From Vibrio navarrensis (lineage in GTDB: Bacteria; Pseudomonadota; Gammaproteobacteria; Enterobacterales; Vibrionaceae): a stretch of DNA of 64,000 nt. This document shows positions 155 through 56,492 of this stretch, piece by piece. Positions within the stretch are counted from its first letter, which is position 1. Each line of letters begins with the position of its first letter. Position numbers and translations under genes: made by a program. The DNA lies in contig NZ_CP065217.1 of the NCBI RefSeq assembly GCF_015767675.1, positions 1,240,001 to 1,304,000 of the forward strand, in the 5' to 3' direction. The notes beneath the pieces are model-generated. The model was not told where the DNA came from. It was given only the letters and a program-made list of their open reading frames with translations, and did no database searches.

Positions 155-1113
155 TTGATTTTATAAAAAACACGGCACATAGTGAGTGCAATTATTCCAA
201 GCGCAACGATGCCATGATGCCCGAAAACCAACCCGTTTTTCAGCTCGTCCCTGAAATCGCCTTACTCGAATCGTTACCAGCGCACCTGAAAAAGCGCTTC
301 ACGCACGCGCTTCACTTGATGCATCAAGAGTGGGGCGAGCGTCGAACGTGGGAAGAAATCGCGACGAAAAGCGCTATTTCTCCCTATCATTTTCATCGTC
401 AATTTACCGAGTTGTTTAACGAAACGCCTGGGCAGTATCTCAGTCGAGTTCGGTTGCAAGTGGCGGTTGGCCTGCTACTAAGCGACGAGCAGTGGAGCGT
501 GATTGACATCGCGCTGTACTGCGGTTTTTCATCATCCCAGTCGTTGGCTAAGGCATTGAAGCGCGAGCTTGGGGTGACTGCCAAACAGATTCGAAACATG
601 GGTTCCCAAGCGACCCCCAAGGAGACACTGGATTTCATCCAGCGACTAGCGCATCCGGGGATGCAGGCGTCGATGGAAAAAGAGCTGGCGCAAGCGATGC
701 CAACCGAACTCGTTTGGTATCCGCAGCGGGGCATGCAAAAACTCAAATTGGAGACGGCAGATTGGGACAGTGTGTTTGAGTTGTATGGTGAGAAGTCAAC
801 ACATTTGATGAGCACGTTACCGCTCAAACAACTGGAGAAGGCGTGGGATGAGATTGACGCGGAAATTGGTAACTGGCAGGTGGCCAAAGCGCGTTACGAT
901 CGAATAATTCCGGAAGGATACTACTTATGCAGCGAGGTCTATCTCGCTTCCGATGTCGCGTACAGCACCGCGTTAGATGCGTTGTTTGATGCGGCGGAAA
1001 AACAGGGTTTGCCGCTGGATCTCAATGGCTACTTGGTGGAGATGATTCGCCATGTCGATACATCGGAGTTTGAAGGGGTAACCTTCTCATTCCAGTTACC
1101 TGTGTTGGTCTAG
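151..1113 (+). CDS. AraC-family transcriptional regulator
   Basis: A 320-residue protein with the AraC-type double helix-turn-helix near its N-terminus (about residues 50-150). The first HTH lies around WEEIATKSAISPYHFHRQF and the second around VIDIALYCGFSSSQSLAKAL. The remaining 170 residues form a C-terminal domain that might be a diverged GyrI-like ligand-binding module; I cannot assign it firmly. The GTG start at 151 has a GGAG five bases upstream and overlaps the stop of the RND gene, which suggests translational coupling and local control of that pump. ATG codons at 214 and 217 are possible alternatives. A degraded copy of the segment just before the HTH lies at 12331-12417 on the other strand. 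Confidence 0.85.
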   Translation: MIDFIKNTAHSECNYSKRNDAMMPENQPVFQLVPEIALLESLPAHLKKRFTHALHLMHQEWGERRTWEEIATKSAISPYHFHRQFTELFNETPGQYLSRVRLQVAVGLLLSDEQWSVIDIALYCGFSSSQSLAKALKRELGVTAKQIRNMGSQATPKETLDFIQRLAHPGMQASMEKELAQAMPTELVWYPQRGMQKLKLETADWDSVFELYGEKSTHLMSTLPLKQLEKAWDEIDAEIGNWQVAKARYDRIIPEGYYLCSEVYLASDVAYSTALDALFDAAEKQGLPLDLNGYLVEMIRHVDTSEFEGVTFSFQLPVLV

Positions 1114-36866: not shown

Positions 36867-37002
36867 AAGACCTCCTTATTATTTCAAATCTGTTCTAGCT
36901 TCCTGTTGTACATACTCGCACAAAGCAAACGTTCACCCAACGCACAATTTCGTCAATCTGGTGGATATTTAATCGGTTGAACGTGAGTTATACAACAAAA
37001 CA

Positions 37003-37027
37003 AAAAGCCCGCTGTTTAGGCGGGCTT
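37003..37027 (-). terminator. trp attenuator hairpin
   Basis: Stem GCCCGC / GCGGGC (extended by A-T pairs), seven-base loop, then TTTTTGTTTTG on the minus strand. It lies between the leader peptide stop and trpE, the position of a trp attenuator. Confidence 0.93.
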
Positions 37028-37047
37028 CGTATCATGAGTGTCCTCAA

Positions 37048-37173
37048 TTAAAAGTACACGTTTGCCCACCAAGAACTTGTCCAGATGCGCCACCAAGCCA
37101 ACTCAGCTGCATTCGATTTCTCGTCATGCAGAGCAAGTTTCGCTTTTTGCTTTTGGTTAAGTTCTTGTAACAT
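37048..37173 (-). CDS. trpL: trp operon leader peptide
   Basis: A 41-residue leader, starting MLQELNQKQKAKLALHD, with tryptophans at positions 27, 28, 31, 35 and 36. The first half is unusually long and Lys/Gln-rich. When tryptophanyl-tRNA is scarce the ribosome should stall in the Trp cluster near the stop codon and allow an antiterminator to form; the attenuator follows 20 bases after the stop. It was too short to be listed among long reading frames. The start ATG follows GTAAGG by seven bases. Confidence 0.93.
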   Translation of the reverse strand: MLQELNQKQKAKLALHDEKSNAAELAWWRIWTSSWWANVYF

Positions 37174-50634: not shown

Positions 50635-50768
50635 GTTTGTCTGTTTTCTTCGATTTATCTCTTCTGAAACATTAACTTGTCGACGGAAGCGGAAATTTGT
50701 TGGCAAAAAGGATTGCCTGTTGCTTTCTTATTATGATAAATTCGCGCGCAATCTCGGGCAGTAGTCCT

Positions 50769-50909
50769 GGGGGATACGCGTAGTGACCATTCAGGCTGAT
50801 TGGGAAACTACGTAGGGTAGGTATCGGCAAAGCCTTTTGTCGATAGACGGGATACTAATGTTGCTTAAGCAGCGGCATGTAAATGGGAAACCCAACGTTG
50901 AACTTTTTT
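50769..50909 (+). ncRNA. Candidate structured leader RNA upstream of the norspermidine operon
   Basis: This part of the 540-base gap between the tRNA terminator and the operon start shows dense, simple secondary structure. One helix, CGTAGT (50779-50784) / ACTACG (50807-50812), encloses CCA-T-TCA-GGC-TGA-T-TGG (50787-50803). GTATC (50821-50825) can pair either with upstream GATAC (50773-50777) or with downstream GATAC (50851-50855). The second choice closes two small hairpins, GGC-AAA-GCC (50826-50834) and GTC-GATA-GAC (50839-50848). Next come GTTGC-TTAA-GCAGC (50860-50873) and TGGG-AAA-CCCA (50884-50894), then six T residues (50904-50909). I recognise no known riboswitch. It could be a cis-acting switch or a separate small RNA. 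Confidence 0.5.
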
Positions 50910-51141
50910 AATAATCTCACATTAATCAGCTTCATACTTCCTAAATGCCCTGTATTGCAAAACAGAAGCATTACCGAGCCTTGATTTTTAACACCGACAT
51001 TTACCATTCGTCGTAATGGTCGCTATTCCGTACCCGTCTTTTTAGACCCAATCGGAAGGCTTGGTCATGTCCCAATCTCGTACTAAAAAGTTACACAGTG
51101 CGCAGGGGGCGAGAATCATTTTTTGTTTCAAGGGAAAATGT

Positions 51142-54021
51142 ATGAGCACCGCCTTTGAAGTCGATACTAACGCTATCGCTACAATTTTTTCTTCCCAGGT
51201 TCCGATTGTTGAAGGAACTTACGATTTAACTCCGGATCAAGTACTGCTTGATCAAGCCGCGCACGAGTCTGAAGTTCGTTCATACCCTCGTCGTATCCCA
51301 ATAGCGATTAAGCAAGCATTCGGCTGTTTAGTTGAGGATACTCGTGGTCAGATCTTTCTTGACTGTCTGGCGGGTGCGGGCACTTTGGCGCTGGGTTACA
51401 ACCATCCAGAAATTAATCAAGCGCTAAAAGAGCAGTTGGACTCGGGTCTGCCATACCAAACACTGGATATCGCGACGACCGCAAAAACCAACTTTATCAA
51501 AACAGTAAAAAGTTTCTTGCCACAAGAGCTAGGTGATAACTGTGTCATTCAATTCTGTGGCCCGTCTGGTGCTGATGCCGTCGAAGCGGCTATCAAACTG
51601 GCGAAGCAGACGACAGGTCGCAACACCATGTTTGCTTTCCGTGGTGCTTACCACGGTATGACCAACGGCACAATGGGCATGATGGGTAACCTGAATACCA
51701 AAGCCCGCCGTACTGGTCTGATGTCTGATGTTCACTTTATGCCTTTCCCTTACAGCCTGCGCTGCCCGTTTGGTTTGGGTGGTGATGAGGGAGCGAAAGC
51801 AAGCATTCGTTATATTGAGCGTCTTCTCAATGATGATGAAGCGGGCATCATGAAGCCTGCAGCCATCATCGTTGAGCCGGTTCAAGGCGAAGGCGGTGTG
51901 ATCCCTGCACCTGCATTTTGGCTGCGTGAACTACGCCGTCTCTGTGATGAACACGGCATGCTATTGATTTTCGATGAAATTCAATGCGGCGTGGGTAAGT
52001 CTGGCTACAATTTTGCGTTTGAAGAAGCTGGCATTGTGCCAGATGTTCTGTGCCTTTCTAAAGCAATTGGCGGCGGTCTGCCGATGTCTTTGCTGGTTAT
52101 TAACAAGCAGCACGATACCTGGCGTCCTGGCGAGCACACGGGCACCTTCCGTGGTAACCAGCTCGCGATGGTTTCTGGCGCGAAAGCACTGGAAATCATT
52201 ACTCGTGATAATCTGGTTGAACATGCCAACGTGGCGGGTCAATACCTGCGTCACGGCCTAGAGAAAATCCAACAACGTGTGAACTGTATCGCTGAGGTTC
52301 GCGGTAAAGGCTTGATGCTAGGTGTGGAAATTCGCAAGCCAGGCAGCGAACTCAACAAATTTGGTGAGCCTGTTTCGGATGGCAAGCTGACACTGGCGAT
52401 TCAGCGTGCGGCGCTGGAGCGCGGCCTGATGGTTGAAAAAGGCGGTCGTGACGGCTCTGTGATTCGTTTCCTTCCACCGTTGATCATTTCTTTCGAGCAG
52501 ATCGATTTTGCCCTGCGCGTGCTGGAAGAAGCGATTCTTGCTGCGGGCGGCGAACGTGTTGAAGCAGAGCAGAACCCAGAGTGGAAAAAACACTTCATCC
52601 ACACTGGTGTCAATGGCAGCAAAGAGTTCGCCTCTGTGATGAACCACACCACAGAAGCAATGAAGTCGGTGTTTGAACAAGTCAGCGCCCCTTACTCAGG
52701 AATGGATCCGAAAGCACTTGAGCAAGCGATCTATGCCGTTGATCTAGACAACAAAAACGCTTCATTGAAAGCGGTGATTGACGAAACGGCGGAGCTGGTG
52801 GCGAAAAACTCGATTTTCACTCAGCATCCAGACTGTATCGCACACTTACACACGCCTCCTTTGATGCCAGCAGTGGCTGCTGAGAGCATGATTGCGGCGC
52901 TAAACCAATCCATGGACTCTTGGGATCAATCGTCTTCGGCAACGTATGTTGAGCAGAAAGTGATTGATTGGCTATGTGACAAATATGAGCTAGGCGAGAA
53001 GGCCGACGGCATCTTTACCAGTGGCGGTACGCAAAGTAACCAAATGGGTCTGATGTTGGCGCGCGACTGGATTGCCAACAAGCTGAGCAACCACTCCATC
53101 CAAAAGCTTGGCTTACCTGAGTATGCCGATAAACTGCGTATCGTTTGTTCGAAGAAATCGCACTTCACGGTACAAAAATCCGCTTCTTGGATGGGCCTAG
53201 GTGAAAAAGCAGTCCTGACCGTTGATGCACATCCAAACGGTACTATGGATGTCAGCAAGCTAGCTGAGGCGGTTGAACAAGCCAAAGCAGAAGGATTGAT
53301 CCCATTTGCGGTGGTTGGTACGGCAGGTACCACCGACCACGGTGCTATTGACGATCTTAATGCGATTGCTGACGTGGCAGAGCTGCACGACATGTGGATG
53401 CACGTCGATGGCGCTTACGGTGGTGCGCTGATCCTCAGCAGCCAGAAACCGCGTCTAAAAGGCGTGGAGCGTGCGCAATCAGTGAGCGTGGATTTCCACA
53501 AATTGTTCTATCAAACAATTAGTTGTGGTGCGTTGTTGGTTAATGATAAGCAAAACTTCACTTTCTTGCTTCATCATGCCGACTACCTCAACCGCGAACA
53601 TGATGAGTTGCCAAACTTGGTTGACAAATCAGTGGCAACAACAAAACGCTTTGATGCATTGAAAGTCTTTATGACTATGCAGAGCGTCGGTCCGAAAGCA
53701 CTGGGTGCAATGTACGACCACATTCTAGCTCAGACACTGGAAGTGGCTGATCTAGTTCGTCACCATGAAGGCTTTGAGTTACTGGCAGAACCTTCGCTGT
53801 CCACCGTTCTATTCCGTGCAACCAACGGAACGGATCTGGATGAACTGAATAAAACGCTAAGACTGGAAGCATTGACTCGTGGTGTAGCGGTCCTGGGTGA
53901 AACGATTGTAGATGGTAAGACTGCTCTGAAGTTTACGATTCTTAACCCATGTCTGAAGATTTCAGATTTTGAAGCTTTACTATCTAAAATCAACACTCTA
54001 GCGGAAGAGCTAGCGCAATAA
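51142..54021 (+). CDS. Fused diaminobutyrate aminotransferase / diaminobutyrate decarboxylase
   Basis: About 959 residues. Residues 1-460 are a class III aminotransferase, diaminobutyrate--2-oxoglutarate type (IIVEPVQGEGGVIPAPAFW, FDEIQCGVGKSG, lysine in LSKAIGGGLPM). Residues 480-959 are a group II PLP decarboxylase (FTSGGTQSNQMGLMLARD, MHVDGAYGGALI, lysine in VDFHKLFYQTISCG). Together they convert aspartate semialdehyde to 1,3-diaminopropane, the first half of norspermidine synthesis; Vibrio has this fusion. Start chosen at ATG 51142, after AAGGGA; a longer frame from 51061 lacks a good site. The next gene follows after 15 bases. Confidence 0.93.
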   Translation: MSTAFEVDTNAIATIFSSQVPIVEGTYDLTPDQVLLDQAAHESEVRSYPRRIPIAIKQAFGCLVEDTRGQIFLDCLAGAGTLALGYNHPEINQALKEQLDSGLPYQTLDIATTAKTNFIKTVKSFLPQELGDNCVIQFCGPSGADAVEAAIKLAKQTTGRNTMFAFRGAYHGMTNGTMGMMGNLNTKARRTGLMSDVHFMPFPYSLRCPFGLGGDEGAKASIRYIERLLNDDEAGIMKPAAIIVEPVQGEGGVIPAPAFWLRELRRLCDEHGMLLIFDEIQCGVGKSGYNFAFEEAGIVPDVLCLSKAIGGGLPMSLLVINKQHDTWRPGEHTGTFRGNQLAMVSGAKALEIITRDNLVEHANVAGQYLRHGLEKIQQRVNCIAEVRGKGLMLGVEIRKPGSELNKFGEPVSDGKLTLAIQRAALERGLMVEKGGRDGSVIRFLPPLIISFEQIDFALRVLEEAILAAGGERVEAEQNPEWKKHFIHTGVNGSKEFASVMNHTTEAMKSVFEQVSAPYSGMDPKALEQAIYAVDLDNKNASLKAVIDETAELVAKNSIFTQHPDCIAHLHTPPLMPAVAAESMIAALNQSMDSWDQSSSATYVEQKVIDWLCDKYELGEKADGIFTSGGTQSNQMGLMLARDWIANKLSNHSIQKLGLPEYADKLRIVCSKKSHFTVQKSASWMGLGEKAVLTVDAHPNGTMDVSKLAEAVEQAKAEGLIPFAVVGTAGTTDHGAIDDLNAIADVAELHDMWMHVDGAYGGALILSSQKPRLKGVERAQSVSVDFHKLFYQTISCGALLVNDKQNFTFLLHHADYLNREHDELPNLVDKSVATTKRFDALKVFMTMQSVGPKALGAMYDHILAQTLEVADLVRHHEGFELLAEPSLSTVLFRATNGTDLDELNKTLRLEALTRGVAVLGETIVDGKTALKFTILNPCLKISDFEALLSKINTLAEELAQ

Positions 54022-54036
54022 AGGTAACGGAAAACA

Positions 54037-55281
54037 ATGGCAATTTTACAGATTGGTGCAGGCGGCGTAGGCTGGGTAATTGCACACAAAGCAGCACAAA
54101 ACAACGATGTTCTGGGTGATATTACTATCGCTTCTCGCACGCTAGACAAATGCGAAAAGATCATTGAATCGATTCATGGTCGTAACAACCTGAAAGATTC
54201 GAGTAAGAAACTACAAGCTCGTGCTGTTAACGCTGATGATGTGGATGCACTGGTTGCACTAATCAAGGAAGTTCAACCTGATCTCGTTGTCAACGCTGGA
54301 CCTCCTTGGGTAAACCTGACCATTATGGAAGCGTGTTACCAAGCGAAAGTCTCTTATCTTGATACGTCTGTGGCCGTCGACCTATGCAGCGAGGGGCAAC
54401 AAGTCCCTGAAGCGTACGACGAACAGTGGAAATACCGTGCGAAGTTCGAAGAAGCGGGTATCACTGGCATTCTTGGTGTGGGTTTTGACCCGGGCGTGGT
54501 GTCGGTGTTTGCAGCCTACGCGGTGAAGCATCTGTTTGATGAAATCGACACCATTGACGTGATGGACATCAACGCTGGTGATCATGGTAAGAAATTCGCC
54601 ACCAACTTCGACCCAGAAACAAACCTTTTGGAAATCCAAGGTGACTCGTTTTACTGGGAAAACGAAGAGTGGAAACGCGTACCATGCCACAGCCGTATGA
54701 TGGAATTCGATTTTCCGAAATGTGGGAACTTCAAAGTGTACTCCATGGCACATGATGAAGTTCGCTCGATGAAAGAGTACATTCCGGCGAAACGCATCGA
54801 GTTCTGGATGGGCTTTGGTGACCGCTACCTGAACTACTTCAACTGTATGCGTGATATCGGCCTGCTCAGCCCAGAGCCGTTAACGCTGCAAGATGGCACT
54901 GTGGTTCAGCCGTTACAAGTTCTAAAAGCGATGCTGCCAGATCCGACATCTCTTGCACCGGGCTACACGGGGCTAACCTGTATTGGTACTTGGGTACAAG
55001 GTAAAAAGGATGGCAAACAGCGCAGCGTGTTTATCTACAACAATGCGGATCACGAAGTGGCTTACCAAGATGTGGAGCATCAAGCGATTGCTTACACCAC
55101 AGGTGTGCCAGCGATCACCGCAGCGTTGCAGTTCTTCCGTGGTGAATGGGCGGACGCAGGTGTGTTCAACTTAGAACAGCTTGACCCAGATCCATTCCTC
55201 GAAACCATGCCAAGCATTGGTTTGAGCTGGGATGTTCAGGAACTGGTTCCTGGACAACCGACCATTCACACACTGAAATAA
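54037..55281 (+). CDS. Carboxynorspermidine dehydrogenase (saccharopine dehydrogenase-like)
   Basis: A 414-residue NADPH-dependent enzyme that condenses 1,3-diaminopropane with aspartate semialdehyde and reduces the Schiff base to carboxynorspermidine. The Rossmann motif is IGAGGVGWVIAHKAA at the N-terminus; VVNAGPPWVNLTIMEACYQA and GVGFDPGVVSVFAAYAVKH are typical of the saccharopine-dehydrogenase-like family. Its position between the aminotransferase/decarboxylase and nspC fixes the substrate assignment. Confidence 0.93.
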   Translation: MAILQIGAGGVGWVIAHKAAQNNDVLGDITIASRTLDKCEKIIESIHGRNNLKDSSKKLQARAVNADDVDALVALIKEVQPDLVVNAGPPWVNLTIMEACYQAKVSYLDTSVAVDLCSEGQQVPEAYDEQWKYRAKFEEAGITGILGVGFDPGVVSVFAAYAVKHLFDEIDTIDVMDINAGDHGKKFATNFDPETNLLEIQGDSFYWENEEWKRVPCHSRMMEFDFPKCGNFKVYSMAHDEVRSMKEYIPAKRIEFWMGFGDRYLNYFNCMRDIGLLSPEPLTLQDGTVVQPLQVLKAMLPDPTSLAPGYTGLTCIGTWVQGKKDGKQRSVFIYNNADHEVAYQDVEHQAIAYTTGVPAITAALQFFRGEWADAGVFNLEQLDPDPFLETMPSIGLSWDVQELVPGQPTIHTLK

Positions 55282-55358: not shown

Positions 55359-56492
55359 ATGAATAAAGAACAATTGAAGACGCCATTTTTCATGATTGAC
55401 GAAGCGAAGTTGATCCGAAACTTGGAAATTGCCAAACAACTGAAAGAGATCTCAGGCGTTAAGCTCGTTCTCGCTCTGAAGTGTTTTTCCACTTGGGGTG
55501 TGTTTGACATCATCAAGCCTTATTTGGATGGCACGACCAGCTCTGGTCCGTTTGAAGTGAAACTTGGCTATGAGAAATTTGGCGGTGAAACGCACGCTTA
55601 CAGCGTTGGCTACAGTGAAGAAGATGTGCGTGAAGTGGCCGATATGTGCGATAAGATCATCTTCAACTCGCAATCTCAGTTGGCGGCCTATCGTCACATT
55701 CTGGAAGGTAAAGCGTCGATTGGCCTGCGTCTTAATCCCGGTGTAAGCTACGCGGGGCAAGATCTGGCAAACCCAGCACGTCAATTCTCGCGACTCGGCG
55801 TACAAGCGGATCACATTGATTCGGCGGTATTTGAGAGCATCAATGGTGTTATGTTCCATATGAACTGTGAGAACAAAGATGTCGATGCGTTTATCGCTTT
55901 GTTGGATTCGATCTCACAGCGTTTCGGTCAATACCTAGACAAGCTTGATTGGGTCAGCATGGGCGGTGGTGTGTTCTTTACCTGGCCGGGTTATGATGTG
56001 GAAAAACTGGGCTTGGCACTTAAGGCATTTGCAGAAAAACACGGCGTGCAGATGTATCTGGAGCCGGGCGAAGCGATCATTACCAAAACAACCGATCTGG
56101 TGGTGACCGTGGTCGACATCGTTGAGAACGGTATGAAAACCGCTATCGTCGATTCAGCCACCGAAGCGCACCGTCTGGATACCTTGATTTACAAAGAGCC
56201 AGCGTCAGTGCTTGAGGCATCGGAAACGGGTTCACACGAGTACGTGATTGGTTCTTGCTCTTGTCTTGCTGGCGATCAGTTCTGTGTGGCTAAGTTCGAT
56301 AAACCACTCGAAATTGGCCAACGACTGCACATTCTCGATAGTGCGGGTTACACCATGGTGAAATTGAATTGGTTCAACGGTCTGAAAATGCCTTCGGTTT
56401 ACTGTGAGCGTACCAGTGGTGAGATCGAAAAACTCAACGAGTTTGGCTATGAAGATTTCAAGCGTTCTCTGTCGTTGTGGTCGGTGAGCTAA
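55359..56492 (+). CDS. nspC: Carboxynorspermidine decarboxylase
   Basis: A 377-residue PLP-dependent decarboxylase of the alanine-racemase fold (type III), yielding norspermidine. The PLP lysine is in [15 protein letters not shown] (about residue 41). Substrate and PLP contacts appear in [17 protein letters not shown]-like [32 protein letters not shown] and [11 protein letters not shown] (catalytic Cys region). In V. cholerae loss of NspC reduces biofilm formation. The ribosome site is weak, so expression may depend on coupling with the gene before it. Confidence 0.95.

Follow-up and report, generated by a model that had tools for sequence, protein, structure and literature searches.

The norspermidine genes of Vibrio navarrensis are preceded by a stretch of DNA that appears to encode a structured leader, which raises the question of what this leader is and how it might act on the genes behind it. 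The window, i.e. the whole stretch of DNA that we analyzed, comprises 64,000 nt of contig NZ_CP065217.1 (assembly GCF_015767675.1, positions 1,240,001 to 1,304,000, forward strand). An earlier note on this DNA had placed a leader RNA in front of norspermidine genes, and the genes found downstream agree with this placement:

51142..54021 (+), L-2,4-diaminobutyrate (DABA) transaminase/decarboxylase fusion (TIGR00709 above cut-off; decarboxylase half against NF052646 below cut-off)
54037..55281 (+), carboxynorspermidine synthase (NF043000 above cut-off)
55359..56492 (+), carboxynorspermidine decarboxylase, nspC (TIGR01047 above cut-off)

The upstream neighbors of the RNA in the window are pgsA and four tRNAs. 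Norspermidine acts as a signal in Vibrio biofilm dispersal (PMC8079147).

Identity and fold of the RNA

An Rfam scan matched the window RNA to the DABA-DC-AT RNA over the full length of the covariance model (1-149), with a score above the gathering score and with the fusion gene (51142-54021) downstream:

50748..50897 (+), DABA-DC-AT RNA, Rfam RF02951, type Cis-reg (143.7 bits, E 2e-34, gathering score 56.1)

We take this family, from its name, to be an RNA upstream of DABA transaminase/decarboxylase genes; it reportedly originates from Weinberg et al. 2017 (NAR). The catalogued family shares sequence, hairpins and the position upstream of the DABA genes with the window RNA. The structured leader in front of the norspermidine genes is real, and it is an already catalogued, uncharacterized regulatory RNA. 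The earlier note had recognized no known element here and had itself named an Rfam hit among the results that would count against it; this part of its account falls.

RF02951 is present in 217 of 227 Vibrio genomes; none of 14 control genomes carries it. Among the ten Vibrio genomes that gave no match, G183 has its fusion gene where a contig ends; the search for a close homologue of the complete fusion found none in the other nine, two of which are only 73-79% complete. Scanned with the Rfam model under strict filters, 32 of 394 genomes of the order gave matches, and these belong to two genera of one family. From other genera we collected the sequence that precedes the fusion gene (40 stretches; one of them, L238, is a Vibrio contig end, so that 39 were counted). 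The RNA core word GTAGGTA together with the leader open reading frame (ORF) described below occurs in 36 of these 39; the remaining three, L229, L235 and L240, come from operon-bearing genomes and have neither the core word nor an ITEP leader. At laxer settings RF02951 matched 11 of the 14 other-genus loci given to it, 7 above and 4 below the gathering score, the lowest score being 38 bits.

The RNA differs from the catalogued entry in two respects: it ends in the ribosome binding site assigned to a leader peptide, and a wider covariance model (R1) extends it to 9 of the 13 Vibrionaceae genera (92 of 121 genomes). R1 was built on 86 sequences, 23 of which are rows from the fetched other-genus loci. 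With strict filters it matched 21 of 295 genomes in the order sample, every one of them Vibrionaceae. Four weak loci (L147-L150; 15.7-19 bits, below the cut-off) were excluded from all counts.

The fold was examined in an alignment (A1) of 86 of the 111 representatives below 93% identity; the 25 omitted sequences include several long or divergent loci (L109-L112, L145, L215, L221, L227, L230 and L231). Covariation was scored on four hairpins, a different set from the seven helices of the earlier note:

50752..50772 (+), hairpin 1 (50752-50758 with 50766-50772; 96.3% paired, changes on both sides in 4/7 pairs)
50779..50812 (+), hairpin 2 (50779-50785 with 50806-50812; 88.5% paired, changes on both sides in 7/7 pairs)
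50822..50845 (+), hairpin 3 (50822-50830 with 50837-50845; 97.7% paired, changes on both sides in 7/9 pairs)
50859..50877 (+), hairpin 4 (50859-50863 with 50873-50877; 83.0% paired, changes on both sides in 4/5 pairs)
50849..50893 (+), possible 3-bp closing pairing of GGG 50849-50851 with CCC 50891-50893 (RNAalifold), just upstream of the leader start codon

Over A1, 92.5% of the cells in the four hairpins are paired and 22 of the 28 pairs show changes on both sides. None of 500 shuffles reached such values on any of five measures, a count that is not a probability since the sequences of A1 are related. Sliding the partners by 1-3 columns lowered the pairing to 38-52%. Together with the RF02951 match, this strong covariation confirms that the region is structured, as the earlier note had supposed. 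The folding energy of the region is unremarkable (z -1.45; 16 of 200 shuffles fold equally well).

The segments GUAGGUA, UAGA-GGG and CCCAAC vary little or not at all, with GUAGGUA, GGG and CCCAAC invariant in the 86 aligned sequences. Because GGG and CCC are the same in 86/86, covariation neither supports nor refutes the closing pairing. GTAGGTA served as an anchor for orienting and finding copies, and CCCAAC as an anchor in other genera; CCCAAC is found in 132/132 RF02951 loci and played no part in finding those loci.

The earlier note had further proposed a switch in which one strand, GTATC (50821-50825), has two mutually exclusive partners, GATAC at 50773-50777 (alternative A) and at 50851-50855 (alternative B). 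All three words are found at these positions and both pairings are possible in the window; the minimum-energy fold contains a GATAC/GTATC pairing, whereas the centroid has hairpin 3 instead. Neither alternative stem is backed by covariation in the 86 sequences. Alternative A is 79.5% paired with 1 cell changed on both sides and covariation at the shuffled mean, and its second pair is broken in 39 of the 86. Alternative B is 85.7% paired, also with 1 doubly changed cell; its score is 0.180 against a shuffled mean of 0.179, and its fourth pair is broken in 41/86 sequences. Its percentage of pairing and its score lie above all 500 shuffles, by just 1.6 points and 0.001, respectively. Slid versions of either alternative pair less well, as would be expected for words drawn from one aligned sequence. 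In hairpin 3, GTATC supplies the 5' strand: its positions 2-5 (TATC) make up the first four pairs, and two pairs of GTATC have 39 and 42 doubly changed cells. We regard an alternation of GTATC between the two GATAC strands as extremely unlikely.

The six-T run at 50904-50909, with which the structured part had been said to end, is not conserved and lies inside the leader ORF, where the six T form two Phe codons; it was rejected as a terminator. A free-standing small RNA was likewise rejected, no terminator-like site being found at the 3' end of the RNA.

A putative leader peptide at the 3' end of the RNA

The RNA is followed by a short ORF that is absent from the earlier note:

50885..50890 (+), putative Shine-Dalgarno (SD)-like GGGAAA of the leader ORF, assigned by alignment position (AAGGA or AGGAA in divergent copies)
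50898..50984 (+), leader peptide ORF MNFFNNLTLISFILPKCPVLQNRSITEP with TTG start at 50898 and TGA stop (ORF in 130/132 RF02951 loci and 36/39 other-genus loci)

It begins directly after the conserved CCCAAC of the RNA, with at most 3 bases in between, so that CCCAAC sits between the SD-like sequence and the start codon. The 132 RF02951 loci examined are 131 of the 217 Vibrio copies and L076 from another genus. In 130 of them the ORF ends with Thr-Glu-Pro (TEP) and UGA, starting with TTG (102), ATG (19) or GTG (9). L076, whose operon is decayed, has no leader with a TEP end. In L143 the usual ATG start does not share a frame with the ITEP codons, which lie beside a T-rich stretch; this frame break may be an assembly error, slippage or a broken leader.

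Including the 36 other-genus loci there are 166 leaders, with 158 distinct DNA sequences and 128 distinct peptides. Only ORFs with a TEP end entered the 158 (L076, L143, L229, L235 and L240 lie outside), and the counts are not independent, the sequences being related. The last three codons encode T, E and P in 158/158, with codon positions 1 and 2 invariant and position 3 variable: ACT 90, ACC 33, ACG 19 and ACA 16 for Thr, GAA 101 and GAG 57 for Glu, and CCT 146, CCC 5, CCG 4 and CCA 3 for Pro, which shows the least third-position variation of the three. This variation indicates that the peptide, rather than the DNA, is kept. The preceding residue is Ile in 155 of these ORFs, Leu in 2 and Val in 1. 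UGA serves as stop codon in 157 ORFs and UAA in one (L227), and UAG does not occur; for comparison, TGA ends 8 of the 36 window ORFs of at least 200 codons. In the 28-codon class, substitutions at codon positions 1, 2 and 3 number 306/124/586 (163 close pairs).

The leaders range from 21 to 52 codons and share one C-terminus, upstream of which a looser I-S-F-x-L-P-x-C pattern recurs; 136 of the 158 distinct ORFs start with TTG or GTG. We thus find a short ORF under coding selection, kept directly upstream of the operon as in leader peptides, and, as in TnaC, a C-terminal Pro directly before a stop codon read by RF2 in 158/158 distinct leaders. Some leaders are lengthened with the same C-terminus: in L007 and its relatives to 40 codons with repeated CPIL units, and in L118 and its relatives to 52 codons with an inserted middle. 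The genome of L229 lacks the RNA; its fusion gene is preceded by a different short ORF, MVKFLLFKIKRFILSQKSLHTIP, that ends with Ile-Pro-UGA.

Literature searches by the names 'DABA-DC-AT' and 'RF02951' found no papers, and no function of RF02951 was found in the literature searched; the titles and abstract openings of the matches listed do not describe the leader peptide. A profile built from 12 leaders and searched against proteins returned one cluster, hypothetical proteins of Vibrio chagasii, which is weak evidence of absence because ORFs this short are often left unpredicted. As far as these searches reach, the leader, its coupling to the 3' end of the RNA and the reach to further genera look new, though the authors of RF02951 may have seen the ORF. 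The leader peptide makes RF02951 a testable system.

Promoter, spacer and association with the operon

Two further elements flank the RNA and the leader:

50734..50742 (+), extended -10 element TGATAAATT (TGnTA), at the same offset in 102/131 copies
50985..51141 (+), leader-to-gene spacer with variable hairpins (gene start codon at 51142)

Within the 31-nt search stretch TGnTA occurs in 126/131 copies. Its fixed distance before the RNA points to a transcript start near the RNA 5' end, at ~50748; a general sigma-70 scan found no full promoter.

The spacer between leader stop and gene start measures 96-249 nt in 129 loci. No common fold was recovered from it, and RNAalifold on a MAFFT alignment gave no pairs. 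Terminator-like hairpins were found in 46/128 spacers compared to 10/128 after one mononucleotide shuffle each. An intrinsic-terminator-like site is absent from 82/128 spacers, including that of the window, and no terminator is common to all. A strong C excess as in Rho sites was not seen (C 21.1 and G 18.4 per 100 nt in the first 100 nt). In the window, the TEP and stop codons of the leader (50973-50982) can form a stem of 10 pairs with the spacer (51056-51065). As a general feature this pairing was rejected: 11/128 loci reached the threshold versus 7.7% of shuffles, with a mean score of 15.2 versus 14.0.

The RNA keeps company with the operon. Of the 132 loci that the Rfam model alone detected, 129 have the transaminase half of the fusion no more than 1.5 kb downstream. 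At L099 and L130 the ORF behind the RNA and leader has no transaminase match, and the decarboxylase half follows within 1.5 kb. Among the 121 genomes of the family, 93 have a strong fusion-protein match (E below 1e-150, including split or half genes in several genomes), and 89 of these 93 have an R1 match; of the 28 without a strong fusion match, 3 do. The comparison is not independent, since R1 was built partly from copies upstream of the fusion in the same genomes, and nine of its R1-negative genomes were derived by subtraction.

The four genomes with a fusion gene but no R1 match are G589, G593, G599 and G636; in G593 (locus L230) GTAGGTA and the leader are present despite the missing match. 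G431, G590 and G637 have an R1 match without a strong fusion match, all with degraded or partial operons. G590 and G431, whose operons are decayed, have lost the ITEP end, while G637 keeps RNA and ITEP leader with no fusion gene nearby. Loci L076 and L252 retain only fragments of the fusion gene and no ITEP end. At L251 the fusion gene was not found and the synthase gene is shortened; nspC and the ITEP end are kept.

Proposed control of the operon and alternative explanations

Based on these comparisons we propose a composite attenuator, in which the RNA would gate the initiation of an arrest-type leader peptide that controls the norspermidine operon; we consider this reading reasonably probable. 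Two features suggest it. The SD-like GGGAAA or AAGGA and CCCAAC lie in the conserved 3' end of the RNA, from which position we deduce that RNA folding and leader initiation must interact. The sole invariant part of the leader is its last residues before an RF2-read stop, which has the look of arrest at termination. Several observations weigh against the proposal: the spacers have no terminator in common and no strong C excess, pairing of the leader end with the spacer is not general, Pro is mostly encoded by CCT, the ITEP codons of L143 are out of frame, L229, L235 and L240 have neither core word nor ITEP leader, and G637 keeps both RNA and leader although the fusion gene is missing nearby.

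In the proposed sequence of events, transcription would start at the 5' end of the RNA, as the promoter element suggests. The conserved 3' end of RF02951 carries the leader ribosome binding site, and the fold of the RNA would set the frequency of leader translation. The nascent leader would then slow RF2-dependent release while Pro occupies the P site. The trigger is probably a metabolite of the norspermidine pathway, whose members are the first candidates for the ligand. The paused ribosome would decide whether RNA polymerase crosses the spacer and enters the operon, in the manner of TnaC at the tna operon; here we infer the termination step and the direction of control.

TnaC, the leader peptide of the tna operon, is short and ends with Pro and UGA, like the norspermidine leader (PMC8429421). 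Once Trp is bound, the ribosome is held with Pro24 of TnaC in its P site and UGA in its A site; RF2 is blocked and Rho is kept off (PMC8429421). The tna operon is catabolic, whereas the norspermidine operon is biosynthetic; unlike in TnaC, the ribosome binding site here is held by a conserved structured RNA, and the arrest is proposed. Beyond the Pro-UGA end we know of no likeness to TnaC. SpeFL, the leader of speF, has a role in polyamine metabolism, and its C-terminus differs from that of the norspermidine leader. SpeFL is a metabolite-sensing leader that arrests at termination with ornithine and blocks RF1 (PMC8429421), whereas the stop of the norspermidine leader is UGA (one UAA) and never UAG. 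A bacterial RNA that responds to polyamines is the spermidine riboswitch, a SAM-I variant, which, according to PMC10853860, is not carried by norspermidine producers such as V. cholerae. It is a different family from RF02951.

The alternatives differ in what they assign to the RNA and what to the peptide. It is possible that the RNA itself senses a ligand. In a two-sensor version of the attenuator, an aptamer would gate the arrest peptide, and the peptide would sense a polyamine or precursor in the exit tunnel and block RF2 at Pro-UGA. We put this forward tentatively; if true, norspermidine synthesis would be set by RNA and nascent peptide in series, and the Vibrio family would have an arrest peptide of the polyamine pathway, and few bacterial arrest peptides tied to such metabolism are known. 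A fixed, ligand-free fold that holds the leader ribosome binding site, with the nascent peptide doing all the sensing, would be in line with the unchanged ITEP where the RNA has drifted (other-genus loci down to 38 bits) and with the Ile-Pro-UGA end of the different ORF in L229, which lacks the RNA core word; yet GUAGGUA, GGG and CCCAAC are invariant in 86 sequences, more than a ribosome binding site needs, and we find this rather unlikely.

RF02951 could also be a plain metabolite riboswitch that controls the operon alone, with the leader as a translated readout of access to the ribosome binding site (translation keeping Rho off) and the peptide sequence idle. Its long invariant unpaired stretches resemble a ligand pocket, and the ribosome binding site lies within the conserved core. 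An idle peptide, however, would not give T-E-P codons with positions 1 and 2 invariant and the third variable in 158/158 ORFs, nor a UGA stop in 157, so that this explanation appears quite unlikely. A small protein of independent function, in place of a cis-acting leader, would account for the clear coding selection, but only the C-terminus by the stop is invariant, the length varies from 21 to 52 codons and TTG or GTG starts predominate (136/158). The ORF is moreover flanked by a regulatory RNA on one side and the operon on the other, and 2 of 3 decayed or partial operons have lost its end; we hold a free small protein to be very improbable.

Apart from the proposed attenuator, two loci from different genera without RF02951, L235 and L240, have a leader stretch in common, ~200 nt before the fusion gene. 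The stretch is 78% identical over 312 aligned bases including the gene start, with no Rfam match inside it, and is possibly a second, unrelated leader of the norspermidine operon. L235 also contains a lysine riboswitch (RF00168) at 865-1041 (+), divergent from the fusion gene. In the window itself, an ordinary tryptophan operon leader (RF00513, 64 bits) is located at 36999-37101 on the minus strand.
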